From Psococerastis gibbosa (Eukaryota > Arthropoda > Insecta > Psocodea > Psocidae): a stretch of 64,000 nucleotides of DNA. The number at the start of each line of letters is the position of its first letter. Position 1 is the stretch's first letter. Below the pieces are notes generated by a model. It searched no databases and was not told where the DNA came from. It saw nothing but the letters and a program-made list of their open reading frames with translations. Shown piece by piece: positions 6,608-42,104 of the stretch. The stretch lies in the NCBI GenBank assembly GCA_963971405.1, contig OZ020492.1:15922151-15986150 (forward strand), given 5' to 3'. The position numbers were made by a program, and so were the translations under genes.

Positions 6608-6745
6608 ACTGTCAGTAAGGAAAACAGTGAGGAAAAAAAGAAAGCCAGCAAGAAAAACATGTTGGGACACGGGGGGGGGGGGCGTTAATTATCTAATGAG
6701 GAAAAAAGAAAGCAAGCAGGAAAAACATGTTGGGACACGGGGGTG
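6608..6745 (+). repeat. Imperfect tandem duplication, ~70 bp
   Basis: GAGGAAAAAAGAAAGC...ACATGTTGGGACACGGGGG occurs twice. Each copy ends in a G run. Confidence 0.75.
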
Positions 6746-7290
6746 GGGGGGGAGGGAGGGGGGGCGATTGCTCCATGCTCCAATACCCATGTATAGGAAT
6801 TAAACCCTATAACCAATTACTAACAAGAAATAAAGCAAATAATGGAAAAATTATATTCCGGGAAAAAGTAAAAGAAAGGTTAAAAGAATACAGAGCATAT
6901 TCACATAATATAAATGTAATCTTTTTAAATTTTTAATCTTAATTTTTTTTTAGCAGAGTATTTTTTATTTGAGAAAAAACAACAACAATGTAACAGGTAC
7001 TGATCGCGTACGGGCTTCTAAAGCCCAGCGATAACAGTTCTATTGTATTTGTAATGTGCACATACATTATTATTATTACGTGGAGGGTTGGGCTGACATA
7101 GGTCTGGAGACCCTTTGAACAGCATAATTATTGGGATCTCATCCCAATCATTCAAACTATGTCCTTAGCCAATTAATTAGCTGTTGAAAAACAGCAGCTT
7201 AACCTTGTTAGCGAAGACAACCATGTCCTTCAATGGCAAGTCAATCAGATCGACTTGGTCGATGTATGCAGCCCCAAAATTAAATATTAA

Positions 7291-7498
7291 ACATTGACTT
7301 TTTGTTCTATTACTAAGCTAATTAACCTAGCGGAGTTAGGCCTTTAAAGCCCTCTCTTACACTCAACTAGGAAGGCCCGGGACCGCCTGCTTTACATGCC
7401 CTCCGAAGCATGGCCAGAAAATGTAGCCAGTGTGGGACTCGAACCAACAACCTTTCGGGTGAAAGTCAGAGTCTGTACCACTATTCTACATGTCCTGA
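7291..7498 (-). mobile_element. SINE-A copy
   Basis: Reverse orientation. B-box complement at GGACTCGAACCAAC; tail on the left. Confidence 0.85.
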
Positions 7499-7574
7499 CC
7501 GTCCTGACAGTCAACCGCGCCCGCGTGCATATACATAATAATAAATTGTCTTGGAAATACATTCATTCACTCAT

Positions 7575-7870
7575 TCATTCTTTGCGTGGTAAAGCAGCTA
7601 CGGTTCGGCCACGTCCACATACTGGGCCCTGGGGGAAGGCAAGCTGGCTGGAAAAAGCTAGCCGAGGCCACTAGCCATTAGTCAGACCGAGGACAACCCT
7701 CTAGGAATGAATCAAAAACAACTGGGGGAGAAAAGGTGGAATACGAGGGGATGACAATCGACCGAGTGGACTATAAGAAAAGGACACCCCCCCCCCCCCC
7801 CACGCTGCGCCGCATGCGGCACACTAAGGAGGTAGAAGAAAATGAAGAAGAAGCAGAAGAAGAATTGTGG
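7575..7870 (+). mobile_element. LINE 3' end with GAA-rich tail
   Basis: Frameshifted text encodes the end of a LINE reverse-transcriptase ORF (R-x-FGHVH, then GRPRTTLEE-like), followed by a C run, ACGCTGCGCCGCATGCGGC and a GAA microsatellite tail. Related ends are at 61430-61620 and 63366-63420. Confidence 0.6.
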
Positions 7871-8179
7871 GACGGAAGGACTGTTTTAGACTTTCACAGA
7901 TATTGTTGAGACCTGCAAGCTAAGAGAGTATGTAGTGTAGTGCCAAAGGCGTAGCCAAGAATATTTCCGGAGGGGGGGGGGGGTCAAACCTGCCCCCAAA
8001 AAACCTGGGAATAATTTGTTTAGAATTTCTTTTTACAGTTTTTGGGGAAAATTCCTTTTAATTTGAGTAAATATTACAAAAGGTTGTCTACTATACTATC
8101 GAACTGTGCATCTGAGGGTTGACTATTTTGTTTTAGGCTAATGGCTCGAGTCTCTAATCTCCGAATTATTTCGTTTCAG

Positions 8180-8298
8180 AAGGTTCAAGCCACAAAATGA
8201 ATTACCACGGTAAGAAGATACGAGAGGAGAAAACATCTCCGGAAAATTTATGCCCAAAACCTGGAACAAGTGCTGAAACAGAACAAAGGCAACAAAAG
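8180..8298 (+). CDS. Gene A exon 1 (first visible coding exon)
   Basis: The acceptor is TTTCAG before 8180 and the donor is GTAAAT after 8298. From the ATG at 8197 the exon gives 34 codons and ends in phase 0. Its C-terminal GTSAE..Q..QQ motif matches the repeat unit of the 21583 exon, and both exons leave the same two bases of a split codon at their 5' end. A shorter exon ending at a strong GTAAGA donor at 8210 is possible. Confidence 0.55.
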
Positions 8299-11200
8299 GT
8301 AAATCCTAATCAGGTATTCCTAACTTAAAACCCATGGTATTGATACATACAAACTACAGCCGGAAGTTAAAAATAAGCTTGGGTTGCTGGTAATCTCTTA
8401 AATAACACAAAAAATTGCTTTAAAATTATGGATGCGCAATGGTTAATAACAATTATTGACTAATCAATAGCTAAAAATCTTAGTCTAAAGGGGATCCTTT
8501 ATGAAGTCAGGCAATCAATGAATGACATGACAATGTGTCGGCTTCTTATTCCATTTTTAATTACACTCTCTGATATTATACACGGAAGAAAAGACGGTAA
8601 GCCAATAGTTTACTCTCTGTTTCAAATTGTTTAAGGACGACGTTGCAGCAGAGCTCCCAATGCCCCAAAAGATTTTCCGACCATGGGAGGATGCTACAGT
8701 TGGTATCGAAATACAAGAACGCCGTTGCGAGGTATAGTTAAATCTTTACATGTCCGGTACTCACGAACGTTCGACGCGGCGTGTGACGCTGAGAAATTTA
8801 TCGTGTGAACAAATAGCCTGGTGATAGGTTGGTGCAAAGAAAAGTTAATTTCTGAGCGCAATTCCGAAAGTTTTGTGACAAGGACGCGTGTTCCGGGCGT
8901 GTTTAGGGGTAAACCCGTGCGGTTCTGTGCAACCGGCTTCACGCCAGCTGGCTATGGTTCGAAGAAATCTTCAGCTACAATGGAAAAGACAAAATCGCGA
9001 CTGGCAGAATCGAACTCAATGGCTGGACTATAGTGTATAACACACGGATACGATATAATACTACAATTAAAATTGATCAATAGATAGTAGAATGTTTTTA
9101 GGCAAATGGGCAAATCTCACAGACAGGTACCGTGTATTTGTTTGTTTCTCGAAAAGATTTTCCACTCCGTGATTAGCATTCTGTTTCTTTATTCCCCCGT
9201 GTATGAGCATCCTTTGGCTCAGACTCCCTGGACCGTAGCCGTTGATCTTTTTATATTGTACTCCATTTCTGCTAAGTCATTGTCCATTTTCAAGTGATGG
9301 TAATAAAAGGGTAACAGTCCCCGCATTGGCGGTATAGGGGCAGGCTAGTTCCTGTCAACTTGTAATAGAAATATACTACGCTTCAAAGGTCATTCACCTA
9401 TTAAAAACCCCGTAACCGTGATTACAAACCAATGGTAAACTTTCTGGTTCAAATTATTTCAGGATGAAGCTGCAGCTGAGAACGGAGTGGAGGCACCAAA
9501 TCCCCAAGTACCCCAATTGTTTTTCAAACCATGGGAGGATGCCACTACTGCGATAGAACTTCAAGAACGCCGTTGCGGGGTAATTTTATTAATCTTTAGC
9601 CTCCCGTAGGTATCTCCTTCCTTTGGTTCAGACCCTCAAGGCCGTAACTGTTGACCCCTTCATGTTTTACTCCATTTTTGCTGAATCATTGTCCATTTCC
9701 ACGCAAAGGTGATAAAAGTTTCCAGTCCCCGCAGTGGCGTATATGAGATATATTTTCGGGAAGGACTGAGACCAAATTGCCTCTTGCTATCAATTTCTTG
9801 CCGTGGGCAGAGGACCCAGAAGACGTTTCACCAACCAAACCACTTACTGTTCACTGCTGACCCGAACTTCTATTACATATGGCAAATTATGCATTACAAC
9901 AGCTCATTAGTTAATTTTGTCTTAAATTTTCCAATTTCGAGGGCGCTGCCCCACCCCCCCCCCCCTTCCTCCCCATATATACCCCAAAGAGTCCCCGGAG
10001 AAGATCGCTTACCTCTCCCGTTAGCCCCGGAAACCCGGCTACCACCGGGGTTGGCTACCCGATCTCCATCTTTTGCAGCAGAACCTATCGTTGAGGTTGG
10101 AGAAGGCTAGTTCCTGTCAACATGTTAGAAAAATATACTAGTCTGCGCATCAAAGGCTCTTTGCCCATTAAAACCCCCGTAAAATGTAGGCTACTACTAC
10201 TATCCAATAGTTGACTCTCTGTTTCAAATTGTTTCAGGGCGAAGATGCAGCCGAGATCGATGTGGGGGGACCGAATCCCCAAATCCCCCAAATGATTTTC
10301 AAACCCATGGAGAATGCTGGTATCAAACCACAAGAACGCCATCGCAAGGTATAATTAAATTCTCCACACCCAATATTTCTCCATCTTTGGTGAGAGAATA
10401 CTAAGTTAGAGCCACTTTTACGTACCGTACTTGGAGGGAAAAGTACGAGTAATAATGAAATGAAATGAGAAAGAAATATATTTCCCCAGAATTACCAAAA
10501 ATACAAATTACAAAAAGTAATAAATAACAATTGGAAAAAGCTGTGATTAGAAAGTAGGAAAATAGTGATTCAGGAAAGTAGGCAGGTAAAAATTCGAATG
10601 TGATTTGCTTTTTTTTATCATTATTATTAACAATATTAATGCAATTTAATTCAATTTTATTCATTTTCTTCAATACCTAAAATACATTATTCCATTTTTT
10701 CATGGTAAGGGCCCTAAGGGATAAATCCTCGCTGATCAGCACTGGACCCTTGTTTTATTGAAACTTAAACATAGAAATTATTGAGTTAAGAAAGACTAAC
10801 ACTACGTGATCTACTGACTAGGTACCACTAACTAAACTAAACTAAACTGACCTTATAGTAAAATTAATTATAATTAACTAAGTTAAACTACAATAAACTA
10901 CGTATTATTGTAAACTTATGTTAAACTAATATATAATAAACGATGATTGATGACGATGTAATTAAGGAAAGTATGTATAAATTTAAAAGAAAATAATGAA
11001 GTTTTATATTATTAGGTTTTAATTATTGCTATCCAATTTATACGTAGTATAAGGAAAGCTTTGTGACGGTCGAAATTTTCGATTCCGAGATTTCAACGGA
11101 TTTACATGTTTTAAGGTCCCAGGAACCCCAAAAAGTGGTTTTTACGAAATGTCTGTCTGTCTGTCTGTCTGTTCGTCGATTTTCGGGCAAACTACTCAGT

Positions 11201-12208
11201 CGATTTTGATGAAATTCTGCATGTAGGTTTACAAAAATCATACCTCGGGACCAGTTTTTTTATTTGGGGCTAACTCAATTTGGGGAGGGTTTTATTCTCA
11301 AAAAACGCCAAAAAAACTTCTAAAAAAATTATTTCTCAAAAACGACTCCAACGATTTCTTTTAAATTTACGTATATTGTAGTAGTTATTAATCTTAATAA
11401 AATGCGGGGGGTCGCTTGCCCCTTGATAGTTTGGTTCTGGGGGTAAAAAAATAAAAATAATTAAATTTTAATGAAAAATGACTAAAAAATAATTTTTCTG
11501 TGAAACCTTTCTATCGATGATTTCTACCTTCAGGCATGTATTAGGTGTTAAATTGAGTAACGAAACCGGACAGGTTGCTTTCCCAGAAAAGTATTTGGTT
11601 TTGTAGAAAAAATGTTTTTTTGAAAAAATGATAGAAAATTCACGCTCAAATGCATTGCGAGCCCTGCCAGTATTGCTGTGTGGTAATGTGTTGGTCTCAC
11701 CTATCTAGAATTTACCTCACCACCAGTGACGAGTGACGTCAGGTGGACAACCCCCCCCCCCCCCCCCCCCCGAGATATCGGAAAATAGGGAAATTATTTA
11801 CCATGAAATTACTCATTTTCTCTATCTACTAATTTTGATAAATTGGAAAGCATGTTCGAGTAAACTCGGACCGGTTCTGGTTAAGATTGTGCTATAATTT
11901 TCCTTCAGAAATTTAGTAATGGCTGACTTCAATTGATTACATACGATTAATGATTTTATATGTTCAGGAAGAAAGTTGCAAAGAGCGATAGAAATGTATA
12001 AATATGGGAATTTTTGTAAAGTTCTGAGTTGGGTTTGATGGCTTTGTGGTTGCAACCGGTACGAAAAATTTTATCTGTCATTTTTTGATCAATGACTAAT
12101 CACCGATCTCATAAAAGAAGAAAAAAATGTCACTTAATAGCGCAGAAATGAAATCAATAGAATTAATGAACAAAATATAAGTAGCCCATAGTAGTAATAT
12201 TTTTTTTT

Positions 12209-12260
<52 letters not shown>

Positions 12261-14650
12261 GTTTCTTTATTGTACTAGGCTCCCCTAGCGGAGTTAGGGC
12301 CTTCGGGCCCTTTCTTACACTCAACTAGAGGGCTAGCTAAATAGCGTTACATAGGTACAACATTATTTCTAATATAACACTAAAGTGTAGAGACATTCAC
12401 ACATTCATTCATACATGGAGAGCGAAACAATGTCAGATCTTCATGCATAAACAATAGCTACAAAAATAAAGAATGGAAAAATTATGAAATTATAGGCTGG
12501 AAAATGGATTTTTATTACTTACAAACTATAAATTGCTATTGTAGTACCTACCTACAGAATTAAAAAATTAGTTTTTTGGAGTTTTTTGAAAATTAAACCC
12601 CCAAATAGCCCAAAATAAAGGTATGCTTTTTTTAAAACCTACATGCCAAATTTCATCCAAATCCACTGAGTAGTTTGCCCGGAAATCGATGGACAGACAG
12701 ACATTTCGTAAAAACCACTTTTTTGGGTTCCTGGGACCTCAAAACATGTAAACCCGTTGAAATCACGGAATCGAAAATTTCGACCATCACAAAGCTTTCC
12801 TTATACTATACTACGCATAAATTGGAAAGCCAAAACTACTCAATAAATATGATAAAGCAGTTGCGTATGGGTTGATGGGCCGTGGCTGATCTAAAAGCGT
12901 AATTCCAAAGTTTCCTTAACATCTGGGTTCGCCATCTCTACTTAGTTACTACCGAGTCTCCCTGATACACAATCCTAACAGAGGCGGACACAGCGACCGG
13001 CACTGTGGGCATTTGCCCCCCCCCCCTCCTTTGGAAGGCAGTTATATTCTTGGCCTCTAAAATCCAAGTGTTAATTGCACTCAAAATTTATAAAACCCCA
13101 CTATTTCAGCCCTATTTTTCAAAAAAATTCTCCCGGGGGAGAACCCTGGGTCCCCCTTGTGCACAATTTTATTAATTTCCGGCAATATAGAAACCTTATT
13201 GCTCTGAAAATGCGTAAAACCCCAATGTTTCAGCCCTAATTTAAAAAAAATATATTACCCAGGGGAGACCCCCGGGCCCCCCTTAATTTCCTCCCAATCC
13301 TCTGGCTCATGCGCAAAGGACACTACGGTCATTATTTTAAAAGCTGCGTACGTCCATGAGAACGGCTTTCCCCATTTTATACACTTTTATGAAAATGGGT
13401 AGAGGGACGCCAAATAATACACGGCCCCCCTCGAAAACCTATCGTTACGTTACTGACAAGTGCCTCCCCCTTTTATGAGGTCTGGATCCTAGAAGTCTGC
13501 CACTGATGCTATCGATCGCAGCTGATGTTGACGCTTGGAAGAAGGCTGCTAGATTCCACTGTCTTTTACAAGGGGATAGGATTTACTCAATAATTCAGAG
13601 TAGCACACAAGAGCAATGATCAAATCAACCAAAAACCATCAGTCCTTATCAGTACTAAGCCATCAGTCCTTCTCAAGACTTAGCCTGATGATGGGAGTAG
13701 CACCCAGTCCCGAAACGTCGCCCCCTTCCCCTGACAATGGGCTCCACCCTCATCGTTCGATGACTATGAGGCCCATGCCTCTAATGACTATTAACACAGC
13801 AGGCAATGTATGTCCGACTAATCCTTTGTTGAGTAGATTTTACTGCTTGATCATGGGGCTCTGGCCATGAAAGCCTTTCTAATTAAATTCTACTAAAAAA
13901 TAATATAAACTGAATGTACCGAGACTTCGATGGCCAGGTGGTAACGTGCTTGCACTATATGTGAGTCTTTACACGCCATGCGATCGGAGACGAGTCGTAG
14001 CTCAACACAGGTACTAACCTACAGAGGCGACTGAAGAGGTCAATCGGATACATTCATTAAATTGTTTGTATGCGATTAATCTTTTAAAAAATAAAAATAA
14101 AAAATAAATAAATAAAAATAAACTGGTACGCTAGATGACTTCTTTAAAACGTATTCCTTTGCGACATGTTCGCATGTCGGTCGTATAGCCCGCAAATATT
14201 GAAATTTCTTGGGATCACTTGTTTCAGGACAAGGCGGTTGAATACATAGCTGGACCCAGTACCTCAGCTGGTGGGACACATGATGCGTATATTAGAGAGC
14301 GACCTTCAGGTAGCGCCGGAGAAGGGAGTTGTCTGAACTATAGTCTGTCTATGGACCGAACTGGTACATGGAGGTTGCTGTGGACATGCGATATCTGCTT
14401 CATGTGTTTTCGTTGTAAATCACAGTTAATTGAGCACATGAGATATCACGTGGGAGAGAATCCCTATCGCTGTCAAGATTGCTCAAAGACATTTTCTCAC
14501 AAATTTATTTTAAAGAAGCACCAGAAAACTCATCTACGAGAGAGTTGTGTCAAATGTTGGATTTGCTCGAGTAGGTTCGGCACAGGCAGTGCTCGGAAAA
14601 TGCATATGGTTCGATCTGTCACAAGTCAATGTCTCACAGCCATCACCTAA
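8197..14650 (+). CDS. Gene A: five-exon C2H2 zinc-finger protein with duplicated exons
   Basis: Five pieces join in one frame: 8197-8298, 8636-8731, 9463-9579, 10238-10348 and 14228-14650, giving 282 residues. All four introns are phase 0 with GT donors; acceptors are CAG except AAG before 8636. The start ATG at 8197 has A at -3, but the exon begins at an AG acceptor at 8178-8179, so a 5' exon exists and translation could start further upstream. Exon 1 ends in a GTSAE..Q..QQ motif. Exons 2-4 are paralogous 32-39 residue units (acidic start, P-Q-x-P-Q core, KPWEDA, QERR end). Exon 5 carries two good C2H2 fingers (C-x2-C-x12-H-x3-H) and a third lacking its last ligand. Such proteins usually bind DNA; the target is unknown. 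An intact gene is likely but transcripts are needed. Confidence 0.6.
8636..8731 (+). CDS. Gene A exon 2 (duplicated exon, copy 1)
   Basis: This is 32 codons, phase 0 at both ends. The acceptor is AAG, a weaker form than the CAG of its two sister exons. It contains a KIFRPWEDAT core and ends in QERRCE. Confidence 0.6.
9463..9579 (+). CDS. Gene A exon 3 (duplicated exon, copy 2)
   Basis: This is 39 codons, phase 0 at both ends, after TTATTTCAG. It shares the acidic start, the KPWEDAT core and the QERRCG end with exon 2. The flanking intron sequence is also duplicated: 9191-9306 resembles 9600-9720. Confidence 0.65.
10238..10348 (+). CDS. Gene A exon 4 (duplicated exon, copy 3)
   Basis: This is 37 codons, phase 0 at both ends, after TTGTTTCAG and before GTATAATT. 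The unit is more diverged: the WED of its sisters has become MEN, but PNPQ.PQ and the QER end remain. Upstream intron sequence at 10105-10237 resembles 9345-9462. Confidence 0.62.
10350..11027. other. Intron sequence, no feature recognised
   Basis: AT-rich, with simple A/T/C repeats around 10820-10930. Confidence 0.4.
11028..11880 (+). mobile_element. GCTTTCC repeat family, nearly full-length copy
   Basis: About 850 bases, from TGCTATCCAATTTATACG to AAATTGGAAAGCA and the near-palindrome CGAGTAAACTCGG. It includes a (GTCT)n block and a C run, has no coding capacity and is of uncertain class. The longest copies are here, 50173-50954 and 57813-58610. Confidence 0.8.
12213..12260. repeat. (TAA)n microsatellite
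   Basis: About 15 uninterrupted ATA/TAA units. It runs directly into the tail of a SINE-A fragment. Confidence 0.95.
12258..12340 (-). mobile_element. SINE-A tail fragment
   Basis: Only the 3' third is present (CTAGCGGAGTTAGGGCC). Confidence 0.65.
12555..12828 (-). mobile_element. GCTTTCC family fragment
   Basis: Reverse copy of the first ~270 bases, ending in ATAAATTGGAAAGC. Confidence 0.75.
13570..13880 (+). mobile_element. SINE-C copy (body)
   Basis: Matches the body of 29625-30168. It lacks the SINE-A insertion found there, so it represents the empty site. It contains CCTGATGATGGG and CCCGAAACGTCG. Confidence 0.75.
13924..14090 (+). mobile_element. SINE-B copy
   Basis: Full head to tail, A-box-like TGGCCAGGTGG, ending GCGATTAATC and A/T. 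It lies in the last intron of gene A. Confidence 0.85.
14228..14650 (+). CDS. Gene A last exon, C2H2 zinc fingers
   Basis: It opens in phase 0 after CTTGTTTCAG and runs 140 codons to TAA. About 55 linker residues rich in G, S and T precede finger 1 (CDIC...HMRYH) and finger 2 (CQDC...HQKTH). Finger 3 (CWIC...H) has no second histidine before the stop. A fragment at 15391-15450 would fit as the missing end of finger 3 plus a linker, so this exon may be truncated. A SINE (13924-14090) lies about 140 bases upstream. Confidence 0.65.
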   Translation, partial: DKAVEYIAGPSTSAGGTHDAYIRERPSGSAGEGSCLNYSLSMDRTGTWRLLWTCDICFMCFRCKSQLIEHMRYHVGENPYRCQDCSKTFSHKFILKKHQKTHLRESCVKCWICSSRFGTGSARKMHMVRSVTSQCLTAIT

Positions 14651-14698
14651 ATGAGCTTGCCGACAGGCTCACAGGCATTATCCCCCTTTTAAGTTTGT

Positions 14699-15122
14699 GG
14701 CTTTCCAATTTATACGTAGTGTAAGGACAGCTTTCTGATGGTCAAAATTTTCGATTCCGAGATTTAAACGGATTTACACGTCCCAGGAACCCAAAAATGT
14801 GGTTTTTACGAAATGTCTGTCTGTCGCTCTGTCTGTTCATCGATTTCCGGGCAAAGTACTCGGTCGATTTTGATGAAATCTTGCATGTAGGTTCACAAAA
14901 AACAAACCCAGGAACAATTTTTTATTTTGGGGGTAACGCAATTTTGGTGGTTTTATTCTCAAAAAACTCCAAAAACACGTCTAAAAAAAATATTTCTCAA
15001 AAACGGCTCCAACGATTTCTTTTAAATTCACATGTATTGTAGTCGTTATAAATTTTAATAAAATGGTGTTGGTCGCTTGCCCCAAATTGGAAAACATGTT
15101 CGAGTAAACTCGGACCGTTTAT
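14699..15122 (+). mobile_element. GCTTTCC family copy with internal deletion
   Basis: The 5' ~370 bases join directly to the 3' terminus (AAATTGGAAAACATG). Confidence 0.8.
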
Positions 15123-21582: not shown

Positions 21583-23617
21583 AAGTACCCTACAAAATAT
21601 CTCCAATCGATTTATCCACAAAAACTCGAAAAAGTGCTGACATGGAATTAAACAAACCCCAGAAAAATGACTATGATGACTTTGTTTACTTTGCTTTATA
21701 CAACACCTGTCCCTGGCTGTTCAGCCATCCGACCCCGAGCCTCGCAGTACCTGCGTACCTGCTCCCGCCAGTGCGAGGACAAAACGTTCCTCTGGATTTA
21801 CCCGTGAATTTTGTAGCAAGTGCTGACATGAAACAAAACCAACAAGGGGAAAATGATAACTCGGAGACACTGGTATCAGTACCTAGAGCTCCTTCGAATT
21901 TAACAATGAATTTTGGAACAAGTGCTGACATGAACCAAATCAAACAAGGGGCAAATGTTTACTGGGAGACACAGGTAGAACCTAGAGCTCCTTCGGTTTT
22001 AACAATGAATTTTGGAACAAGTGCTGACATGAACCAAATCCAACAAGGGGCAAATGTTTACTGGGAGACACAGGTAGAACCTAGAGCTCCTTCGGATTTA
22101 ACCATGTATTTTGGAACAAGTGCTGACATGAACCAAATCCAACAAGGGGAAAATAATAATTGGGAGGCGCTGGGAGAACATATAACTCCTTCAGATTTAA
22201 CCATGAATTCTGGGACTAATACTGACACGAATCAGAACAATAGCGGGGAGAATCTGGATCAGGTATGTTGCAGGTTTTTATTTATATCAGTAGAGTGGTA
22301 TGACGTTTTTGATCAAGTTAGTAAGGAGTTGCCAATTTGGTGGTCGGCAGGACGATATGTAAGGAAGGTGGAGGAACCATTTCTCCCAGAATTCACTTAA
22401 TATTCCCCTTTATAGGCGCCCATTCCACCGACCGGCTAGGGCTATTTACAAAAACGGTGACGTGGTAGCAGACATTCAAGACTTAGGGGGCGTTTCCACC
22501 GACCTCGCTTTGCAGAATGCAAATGACATTGACGGAAATTAGAATTTTTCTTTTTATAGAAATCTATTAAAATGTTTGTACTTAACATATCCCATGACGC
22601 CATTTTTTAATTTTAGTTTGTTTGTTTGTGATTTTACTGTATGATCATTGATCAATTTTAACTATGGCATAGAGGAAAATAAACATTTCCGTCAATTCTG
22701 CAATGCGAGGTTGGTGGAGACGCTACCTAAGTCTTGAGTGTCTGCTACCACGTCACCGTTTTTGTAAATAGCCCTAGCCGGTCGATGGAATGGGCGCAAT
22801 ATTTATCACAGCATATAAGGTATATTATACGCAAATTAGCATAAAACAGATATTTGTGTCCAGACTATAAATGAATTCACTACCCTTTGGATTGATAATA
22901 GTCAAAGAATGTTTTGTGATGATTGGACTTTCGATATTTCGATTTCAATGGATTAACACGCTTTATGGTCCCAGGTTCCCCCAGGACCCCAGGTTTTTAC
23001 GTAATGTCTGTCTGCCCAGGGACGGTTTCAGAAAAAGTTTTCGGGGGGGGGGGGGCGACCTGAAAAATATCGCGTTTCCCTTACTTGAGTAACAATTTCT
23101 CTTCATTTCCTTCAAAAGTCCATTCTATCTAGTATAAAGCTATTTTTCTCGGGGGGGGGGGGGGGGGCGACCGCCCCCACCGCCCCCCCCCCCAAGGATC
23201 CGTCCCTGTGTCTGCCTGTCTCTCATTTTAGGGCCAAACTACACGACAGCAACAGATGAAATTCGGCATGCAAGTTCTTTTTTCTTATTTTATTGATAAT
23301 TTCATGATAACTGTCACTTGATGTAAAAAAAAAAAAAACAGAAAAAACTAAAAGCATGCCAATATATGATCTTCGTAAGTTAAGATTGGACTGAGGCCAC
23401 ATTGTTTTTTTATATTACAATACTGCGTGGTCGTAATTTCTCCATTAAATTGCGTATTTAAAAAGGTCGGAAGAGCAACCTGTTTAAAAAAAATTATATT
23501 TCTGCCACTTGGCTAAGCCAATAGCTGACCAAGGTACAACATACCTTAGTCATGCCTAAACCGTGACCTCAATCCACTGAAATTTCTAAATAGTCAATTT
23601 CGACCGTCACAAAACTT

Positions 23618-36316: not shown

Positions 36317-36889
36317 CCGCTAATAGGCTTACAATTATAAAAAAACTTGGCAATGGCCGGCATTCCTTAACGGTGAAAAAGGGGAAGAACATCCCAAACC
36401 AACCATAAATATACTTATATGCAGCACCAATTTATAATTAAACTAAAAATAAACGGCTAAACATTTTTGTTTTTTTAAAATTCACCTATACTGTAGTTGT
36501 AGTTGATAATTTGGTTTTGGGGGAAAAAAATAAGAAAAGGCTCATTATTCATGACAAATGACTGTTGGGAATAGACTCTAGAGGATAGAACCTTTTCTGG
36601 ACTATAATGGATCTCAGCAGTGAAAATGAAAATCATTGTTAAAATAGAGTTAAAACACTTTTTTTTAAAATTAGTAACACTTTGCTCCAAGCTATTAAGG
36701 CATAAATATAAATTATAATTATGATTTTTTAAAAGTTTCATCACGTTTAGGGTGTCCAAGGTCGAATGAACTTGCCTCCCCGTTTATATCTCTACCGCTT
36801 CCTGACCTTTTCTTTATACTATTTTTTTAATGCGATCCTTTCATAAGATTATTATTTTTGGTTAGTTTTGGTTTCAGGCAACGCGTACC

Positions 36890-38956
36890 ATGATGGGCTC
36901 TTCGCACCCCCCTCCTGCTGAGACTCCTACCAATGACATCACCCTAGTTGGTAATTCTTCAGATGATACCACTTCTTCGCCTCCATCGGAAGACACCGAT
37001 CCTGCAGAGAATTGGTCTTACGATGACGACCTTCGTGAGATCTATGGACTGCTCCCAGCTTCCCTAATTCTGAGATCTTCGTCGGTTGAAAATAATAGCC
37101 CATCCAGTCCGTCAGATTACACGGGTTTTGGCGTCTCATCACTCTCATCATTCAGGAGTTTTCTATACCAGGTTTTGTTCTCGAGTTTCTCTAGATCTGG
37201 TTGGCGTACCAGTGCTCAAGACGAAGAAGGTGACACTAATCAAGCTCCTCCTCCTCCCCCAGATGAATTGTCAGAGCACTCTGTGTTGGGTATCTCCTCT
37301 GGTGCCGAGCAGCTCAACAGTTCCCAAGGCGGTGATAGTCAGGTACACAGTGCTCAAGAAGAAGGTGACACTAATCAAGCTCCTCCTCCTCCACCAGATG
37401 AATTGTCAGAACACTCTGTGTTGGGTATCTCCTCTGGTGCCGAGCAGCTCAACAGTTCCAGAGGCGATGGTAGTCAGGTACACAGTGCTCAAGAAGAAGA
37501 AGGTGACACTAATCAAGCTCCTCCTCCTCCCCCAGATGAATTGTCAGAGCACTCTGTGTCGGGTATCTCCTCTGGTGCCGAGCAGCTCAACAGTTCCCAA
37601 GGCGATGATAGTCAGGTAAAAAGTAATCAAGAAGAAGAAGGTGACACTAATCAAGCTCCACCTTCTCCTCCCCCAGATGAATTGTCAGAGCACTCTGTGT
37701 CGGGTATCTCCTCTGGTGCTGAGCAGTGCACCAGTTCTCAAGGCGATGGTAGTCAGGTACAAATTCACACTTTTTCAAAATATATGGGGTAACGGTATAT
37801 GAATGAATGTTTTAGGTTATTTATTAGCATAACATTATTGGGAGACGATCTTGACGGACGTCCCTATTCGCGAAAACGTTGATCTCCCGTTGATGCCTTT
37901 TGCGTTACGTAAAAGGTTGGTGGTTTATGATCCTGAAACCGGGAATACCAAATGAGAGATTCTTTTTTCAGCTTAGTGACTCTGATGAACTGGCTCCAAT
38001 TACAAGACAGCTCATCAAATACTTGGAAAACGCCATGAGAGCGAGAGGGAAGAATATAATTTGGGTGGCGAAGTGCTCTACGGGGATGATTGGTGATCTC
38101 CGTCACCATTACGACACCTTTCGAAACTTCGTCTGGAATGTCCAGAGTTCGCTTGAGCGCTGGAAGGAGGCTTATTACAACTTACATTTGGTGGATGCTA
38201 CTGAATTTCCAAATCTTTCAATAATAAGAGGACAGTTCGAAAAAAACCCGGAGGTGGAAGATCTTTTTGTATGTATTTTATCAACGTAGAGGCCAAATCC
38301 AACGTAAAACAATAACTTATAGACTATGTGTGTAAATTATATTTTTAAACCCCCCAATGAATGCAATTTTGCAACTGAAGCGGTATAAGATATGATTTAC
38401 CAATTGTTTGCCAACAAAGATCTGTTCATTGTTGCAAATGCTAGACGTATATGACACCTTTAGTAGATATCTGACTATGCTGATTTTGCGGCTGCATAAC
38501 GATGAATTAACTAATGAATTTAAAAAGACATGCTATGCTTCTTACAAAATATTTGGAAAACTCTGCCTTAACTTGAAAAGAGAAGTAAACATGAATAAAG
38601 AAGGACTTTTGTTTCTATTACTTAGCCAAGCTAGCGGAGAAGTTGCTACCCAAACCAGTTTTCATACCGAGTCCACGCGAAGCCCTCATTGTTAGTTGAC
38701 CCATAAATAGATATGTATCCTATTTTTGTAGGAAGATATTCCTGAAGACTTCATGTGGTGTGGACCAATGAAAAGTGGTTTGCACCGCGTCTATCAAGAA
38801 CTGGATAGACTTTTATCGGCATCTATCAATGAGATTGTTGCGCTAAGGGACATCGACATGAAGGATATCTGGCTATTGACGGGTCGTGTCCAATACTTGA
38901 TCGACCTCTTCAATAAAGAAATAGACGAAATAGACTCTCCTTTTTCAAAATACTAA
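36890..38956 (+). CDS. Gene C: three-exon acidic/proline repeat protein with helical C-terminus
   Basis: Exons 36890-37756, 37972-38268 and 38732-38956 join in phase 0 at both introns (GTACAA/TTTTTTCAG and GTATGT/TTTTTGTAG), giving 462 residues ending in TAA. The ATG follows a GGTTTCAG acceptor at 36877, implying a 5' untranslated exon. Residues ~1-105 are Ser/Thr/Asp-rich; ~106-289 are four units of about 45 residues (EEEGDTNQAPPPPPDELSEH...SSGAEQ...SQ). Residues ~290-462 are predicted helical with evenly spaced Leu, Ile and Trp and no low complexity. No signal peptide or membrane segment is seen. The contrast between a fast-evolving repeat and a conserved-looking helical part suggests a modular scaffold or adaptor. 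I do not recognise the family. Confidence 0.72.
37206..37756 (+). repeat. ~135-bp coding tandem repeat in gene C
   Basis: Four in-frame units of roughly 132-138 bases differ mainly in the number of GAA codons and of CCT/CCC proline codons. Each unit ends in a GTCAGGTAC string like the real donor at 37757, so duplication has also copied cryptic splice sites. Confidence 0.85.
38595..38650 (-). mobile_element. SINE-A tail fragment in gene C intron 2
   Basis: GGACTTTTGTTTCTATTACT..GCC..GCTAGCGGAG only. Confidence 0.6.
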
Positions 38957-41429: not shown

Positions 41430-41638
41430 TGTAGGTTGCCAGCAAAAGTCCTATCCAGAATGAGGGTTGCCGAATTTTAAAAAATGACATTTTAATGCGA
41501 TTGTGAACGTAAGACAAAGAGATCTGAGAATATGTCTCGTGCGATAGACGAAGACACAGTTTTCTAGCTGCTGGTTGCTCAATTCCTGGAAGTGATTTAC
41601 TGATATTACTGAGTGAGGTAACTATAGGAACCAGAGGT

Positions 41639-42090
41639 CAATGTGTTGCTATCGCGTGGGAGTCAATTCTTCAAGTATATGGCCAGACTGTATACCGTAC
41701 ATATATGTTGCACATTCCTGAATATATATAGCTAGCGTCTGTTTTAAGATATTCGTGGGTGGTCCGATGTTGGCTTTGTAACCTTGGAGGTAGAAATTGT
41801 ATTCTTATACCAGCAAGACTATTTTATGTACTGTCAATGTGTTGCTATCGCGTGGGAGTCAATTCTTCAAGTATATGGCCAGACTGTATACCGTACATAT
41901 ATGTTGCACATTCCTGAATATATATAGCTAGCGTCTGTTTTAAGATATTCGTGGGTGGTCCGATGTTGGCTTTGTAACCTTGGAGGTAGAAATTGTATTC
42001 TTATACCAGCAAGACTATTTTATGTACTGTCAATGTGTTGCTATCGCGTGGGAGTCAATTCTGCAAGTATATGGCTAAACTGTATACCGT
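41639..42090 (+). repeat. 196-bp tandem array, 2.3 copies
   Basis: CAATGTGTTGCTATCGCG starts at 41639, 41835 and 42031, exactly 196 bases apart. The first two units are almost identical. SD1 copy 1 has only one unit (2912). Confidence 0.95.
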
Positions 42091-42104
42091 AAATAGGCCT
42101 ATAA

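Follow-up and report, generated by a model that had tools for sequence, protein, structure and literature searches.

In the Xenopus FAR finger-associated repeats, repeated N-terminal units stand ahead of C2H2 zinc fingers, and ZAD is another N-terminal domain associated with such fingers. The FiNZ and KRAB genes carry a short N-terminal exon upstream of the exon that encodes their C2H2 fingers (PMC10547256). Tandem exon duplication is itself a known and common process, and a figure of ~10% of animal genes with tandemly duplicated exons is cited in PMC9013439.

We analysed a 64,000-nucleotide stretch of the Psococerastis gibbosa genome, referred to as the window (C20:15922151-15986150, within 409 Mb and 68 contigs). 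It holds a gene with fingers, gene A, whose three N-terminal modules resemble, by description, the layout of the Xenopus FAR genes; genome searches placed a sister gene, A', ~330 kb away in inverted orientation, near C20:16.26 Mb. Like the FiNZ and KRAB genes as portrayed in PMC10547256, gene A has a short N-terminal exon upstream of a C2H2-finger exon; unlike them, it belongs to a pair of genes found rather than a large family, has two intact fingers, and repeats its module as separate exons. The comparison with FiNZ is likewise one of descriptions (PMC10547256). With the tandem exon duplications of animals treated in PMC9013439, gene A shares neighbouring homologous exons of equal phase and shared intron sequence; it differs from the cases given there in that its module has no Pfam match, the gene encodes zinc fingers, and the paralogs differ in copy number.

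Three homologous phase-0 exons in tandem

The module exons and the related intron stretches lie as follows, in window coordinates:

8636-8731, + strand: module exon 1 (m1), 96 nt, 32 aa, phase 0-0, TTTAAG acceptor
9463-9579, + strand: module exon 2 (m2), 117 nt, 39 aa, phase 0-0
10238-10348, + strand: module exon 3 (m3), 111 nt, 37 aa, phase 0-0, without a detected counterpart in A'
9186-9462, + strand: intron stretch in common with the pre-m3 intron, 75-80% identity to 9593-9743 and 10099-10237
9593-10237, + strand: pre-m3 intron, its duplicated stretches interrupted by ~360 bp absent from the other intron

Frame 0 is free of stops in m1, m2 and m3, and each exon has AG at its 5' and GT at its 3' side. 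Nucleotide identities are 76% for m1/m2, 78% for m1/m3 and 75% for m2/m3, with gaps of 21 nt and 6 nt as the sole interruptions of the alignment, and 13 of 39 columns are invariant across the three translations. The similarity continues into the introns: the 34 nt immediately 5' of the three exons are 79-94% alike, and the sequence just 3' of the exon agrees at 83% between m1 and m3 (15/18 nt) and at 81% between m1 and m2 (21/26 nt). Upstream of m2 and m3 a further ~250 intron nt can be aligned at 75-80% identity, and matches between blocks that include exon and intron reach E values down to 3.6e-34 (blastn within the window). The segment 9744-9992 of the pre-m3 intron has its counterpart after m2 in A'.

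The blocks are thus adjacent, homologous and equal in phase and have flanking intron in common, the features by which tandemly duplicated exons are recognized; judged by their sequence, m1-m3 are genuine tandem duplicates of an exon, and their host is probably a zinc-finger gene. The original prediction had placed three phase 0-0 blocks encoding one 32-39-residue module at these positions, and had described them as tandem duplicates of symmetric exons that share intron on both sides. Lengths, frames, splice dinucleotides and homology all agree with the placement, and the exon identity of 75-78% together with the common flanking intron upholds the duplication; shared intron was found for 34 nt upstream and 18-26 nt downstream, although the share of m1, unlike that of m2 and m3, is short. 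Profiles recovered m1, m2 and m3 from the 64-kb window at E values of 7.7e-45 to 7.1e-54, values that are strong by construction because the profiles were made from these exons. Beyond the three exons they gave nothing in the window at E<1 (DNA) or E<0.1 (protein), and a fourth module in the window was rejected, since the profiles match no other site.

Exon 1 and the zinc-finger exon

The remaining recognizable parts of gene A are the following:

8180-8313, + strand: exon 1, an open frame; acceptor and CAG/GTATTC donor the same in A'
14228-14650, + strand: terminal exon, phase 0 acceptor TTTCAG, 140 aa, stop TAA; Pfam zf-C2H2
14387-14449 and 14471-14533, + strand: canonical C2H2 fingers 1 and 2, by Pfam and pattern scan

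The likely start codon of exon 1 is the ATG at 8197, and a simple start-and-donor scan of gene A found no coding exon upstream of exon 1 in 6701-8178. An alternative in-frame donor, AAG/GTAAAT, follows position 8298, 15 bases before CAG/GTATTC. The latter is common to A and A', whereas the AAG/GTAAAT of A reads GAG/GCAAAT in A'; since CAG/GTATTC, which likewise preserves the frame, is the one donor that the paralogs have in common, we place the probable end of exon 1 at 8313 rather than at 8298.

The next recognizable coding exon after the modules is the one at 14228-14650, which consists of a linker, two canonical C2H2 fingers and a third finger without its second histidine. It scores 30.6 bits against Pfam zf-C2H2 (cut-off 25.2), and a PDB search with it returned C2H2 proteins of many kinds (among the best 60 of 226 matches). 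The modules and the finger exon are compatible in phase and stand in the same order in A', and the joining of m3 to 14228 is proposed from this phase and paralog order. Between m3 and the zinc-finger exon lie inverted copies of one repeat, at 11020-11315 and 12572-12838, with arms up to 96% complementary.

Further repeats occur elsewhere in the window. An exon-like open frame at 21584-22262 (+) contains a 99-bp tandem repeat of 4.4 copies, giving 33-residue units; its genome matches are its own full match and two short weak ones, and within the window GTSADMNQIQQ of this repeat exon resembles GTSAETEQRQQ of exon 1 at E values of 0.44-0.97. At 36866-37789 (+) an open frame with a 138-bp tandem repeat (4.0 copies of 46 residues each) has two exon-like open frames downstream of it, at 37894-38286 and 38732-38953, and none of the three has a Pfam family above cut-off. 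A 196-bp tandem repeat of 2.3 copies, 98% matching, occupies 41637-42095.

A paralog with two modules

Gene A lies at C20:15930330-15936800 and its paralog A' at C20:16258800-16263700. A' contains exon 1, m1, m2 and the zinc-finger exon in the order, phases and splice sites of gene A, and is without m3. Its modules are:

C20:16261190-16261285, - strand: A' m1, homologue of gene A m1
C20:16260330-16260446, - strand: A' m2, homologue of gene A m2

The genome searches score the best candidates only, and the m1 copies were located with m2 as query. At E values up to 10, m2 gave six matches, namely the three modules of the window, the two of A' and one unconvincing match (33% identity, E 1.66); m3 gave three (itself, m2 and A' m2), and exon 1 two, in A and A'. 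With the zinc-finger exon as query, at least 53 genome matches were obtained at E values up to 1e-10 among the best 150 of 1934 candidates, led by A (100%) and A' (80%); the other 51, at 32-48% identity and many of them on C15, look by sequence like other zinc-finger genes. On C15, ~28.9-30.6 Mb holds a cluster of many C2H2 zinc-finger open frames, perhaps a large lineage-specific zinc-finger array.

At the DNA level, the homology between A and A', interrupted but in the same order, extends in window coordinates from 6813 to 9992 and from 13556 to 15082. DNA alignment left 9992-13556, the interval that holds m3, without a match at the corresponding site of A'; what it does match in A' is A' m2, through m3, and dispersed repeats located elsewhere. 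The sequence of A' at the place expected for m3 part-matches G/C-rich repeat-like sequence of the window (best E 1.8e-7). A relic of m3 in A' was rejected: below E 0.6, profiles run over a 22-kb A' region (protein profiles over the three frames of the gene strand) detected m1 and m2 but no further copy.

Corresponding modules of the two genes are 92% (A_m2/A'_m2) and 93% (A_m1/A'_m1) identical, and m3 shares 73-82% identity with these four modules. In an unrooted module tree with 200 bootstrap replicates, A_m2 and A'_m2 group at 100, and both m1 copies separate from the m2 copies plus m3 at 96. The position of m3 outside both A/A' pairs suggests that it predates the A/A' split; loss is then the simplest account of why A' does not have it. 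Thus A' most likely lost m3, while a later gain in A by conversion from another source is formally conceivable. By these sequence comparisons the module number would have changed in frame between the paralogs, by loss of a whole exon, and the count of three in gene A against two in A' accords with the earlier suggestion that copy number may vary. The same prediction had named the exon at 8636-8731 as the only one with an AAG acceptor and hence perhaps weakly included. It is the only one among the exons inspected, and the AAG recurs in A', where the first exon base is A and not G; the m1 acceptor is therefore no fresh defect. The zinc-finger exon, the paralog and the near-neutral substitution pattern lie outside that prediction.

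Joining of the modules in the transcript

We consider inclusion of the modules in series within one transcript to be the somewhat likelier mode of splicing. The rival arrangement, in which mutually exclusive choice leaves one module per transcript and yields isoforms with a single N-terminal module, appears unlikely to us. It is nevertheless what the exons themselves would allow: they share frame and splice-site type, differ in length by less than 20 aa and are homologous, as the prediction of mutually exclusive exons presupposes. Pairing of docking and selector RNA elements is one known mechanism of such choice and is not present in every mutually exclusive cluster. Criteria for recognizing these clusters are given in PMC3228551, according to which 90 of 16180 exons of the Drosophila X chromosome that are not mutually exclusive also fit.

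The three 34-nt elements common to the upstream introns were scanned against 50-nt intron windows over 8314-14225, a scan confined to those elements. Of 40 shuffles, 39 paired as well as these elements at their best, or better, and the elements were in none of the longest 25 of 42 inverted pairs; for the common upstream elements the scan thus gave no signal of docking-type RNA pairing beyond shuffles. Furthermore, exclusivity is not an obvious consequence of intron lengths of 731 and 658 nt, and decay of mRNAs that include two modules would not be expected to enforce it, because the joined modules keep the frame.

Frames are kept while amino acids change at about the neutral rate

The coding comparison of A with A' covered 684 aligned bases, made up of exon 1, m1, m2 and the zinc-finger exon up to its base 339; the remaining 84 bases of that exon (the end of the third finger, with two indels) were left out. 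Over the 684 bases there were 0 stops and 0 indels, whereas the introns, alignable over 1614 bases, showed 13 indels. The absence of coding indels has a Poisson P of 0.004, and with the third-finger end included the count becomes 2 indels versus 6.2 expected (P=0.054); the neutral probability of meeting no stop is 0.064. For all three modules of gene A to be stop-free, the neutral probability is 0.24.

Over the same 684 bases, pS was 0.086 and pN 0.081 (pN/pS 0.94). Of 228 residues, 189 were identical; under neutral change the mean would be 187.9. Exons differed by 8.2% and introns by 6.7% (P=0.25). By exon, pN/pS was 0.84 for exon 1, 1.13 for m1, 0.28 for m2 and 1.84 for the zinc-finger part, the m2 value having a Fisher P of 0.042 before any correction for four exons. 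Within gene A, the three modules compared with one another gave dN/dS values of 0.45, 1.91 and 0.46, and amino-acid identity did not clearly exceed that of neutral simulation (P=0.05, 0.94 and 0.37); nor was there an excess of third-position changes, the 28 unambiguous ones falling 11/10/7 at codon positions 1/2/3. Amino-acid constraint is therefore not detectable over the whole of the A/A' comparison. Frames kept without overall constraint fit a zinc-finger gene that is fast-changing, diversifying or starting to decay.

That A and A' are decaying duplicates free of any remaining protein constraint, with the blocks as relics of exons, has in its favour a pN/pS near 1, an exon divergence equal to that of the introns, and a third finger broken in both genes in different ways (14567-14650 in A; in A' the exon was covered up to C20:16259005): relative to each other, A is short by 34 bases at the third-finger end and A' is 14 bases longer in a TTCG run. 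Against it stand the AG/GT sites and frames of exon 1, m1 and m2, the acceptor of the zinc-finger exon and two canonical finger patterns, all preserved in both genes, together with 0 indels in 684 bases and a stop-free m3; we regard decay as improbable. That the three modules are coding exons is, in our judgement, highly probable. Dispersed repeats are abundant in the surroundings, yet an origin of the blocks as a dispersed transposable element that looks exon-like by chance was rejected as extremely improbable, the m2 and m3 searches (six and three genome matches among the best candidates, which alone are scored) having yielded only the five A/A' module exons and the weak E 1.66 match.

The best-kept module segment and its F[RK]PW motif

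The best-kept part of the module reads PQxxF[RK]PWEDA. Between A and A' this PQxxFxPWEDA core differs at 1 of its 66 bases and the remainder of m1 and m2 at 17 of 147 (Fisher P=0.015, for a core picked after inspection). The motif is FRPW in m1 of both genes and in m2 of A', and FKPW in m2 of A; in m3 the core has FKPMENA instead of F[RK]PWEDA, and hence FKPM.

Pfam searches at E values up to 10, with filters that drop most matches above E ~0.1, returned 0 families for m1, m2, m3 and exon 1 up to 8298, and a known Pfam domain for the modules was rejected; no KRAB, ZAD or other Pfam N-terminal domain profile matched m1-m3. FRPW is given as the Groucho motif of Huckebein in PMC6547707 and PMC3698143, and according to PMC6547707 Znf703 was little affected when its similar motif, FKPY, was mutated. 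Like Huckebein, gene A would encode a C2H2 protein, and its m1 and m2 contain FRPW and FKPW; the resemblance extends to four letters only, and m3 has FKPM. A literature search for FKPW returned unrelated contexts only. None of the 11 pattern matches from a scan of viral contigs was confirmed. By analogy, the modules are doubtful candidates for Groucho-type docking segments.

Discussion

We read the locus as a C2H2 zinc-finger gene whose repeated N-terminal region is encoded by tandemly duplicated coding exons, an account that we think probable. Gene A would then be a small C2H2 zinc-finger gene whose three N-terminal modules of 32-39 residues arose when a single phase-0 exon, along with flanking intron, was duplicated in tandem in two rounds. 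The triplication would have preceded duplication of the whole gene as the inverted A', which would then have lost m3, an order of events that is read from an unrooted tree. Spliced as the series exon 1-m1-m2-m3-zinc fingers, the gene would encode a protein of ~287 residues, in which fingers 1 and 2 may bind DNA and the modules may serve as a series of short docking sites, perhaps for a corepressor, with PQxxF[RK]PWEDA at their centre; the number of modules would then tune the strength of binding. More speculative still than Groucho-type docking is a lineage-specific zinc-finger family with a tunable N-terminal array of exon-encoded F[RK]PW corepressor-docking modules, in which repression would be altered through gain and loss of whole exons.

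If the modules are unused, the locus is a case of duplicated exons that hold open frames while their amino acids drift, and a caution for annotation from sequence alone. If they are used, A and A' provide a compact natural experiment on the duplication and loss of symmetric exons and on the dose of an N-terminal segment, which would be of greater importance should the repeated F[RK]PW modules be corepressor-docking sites.
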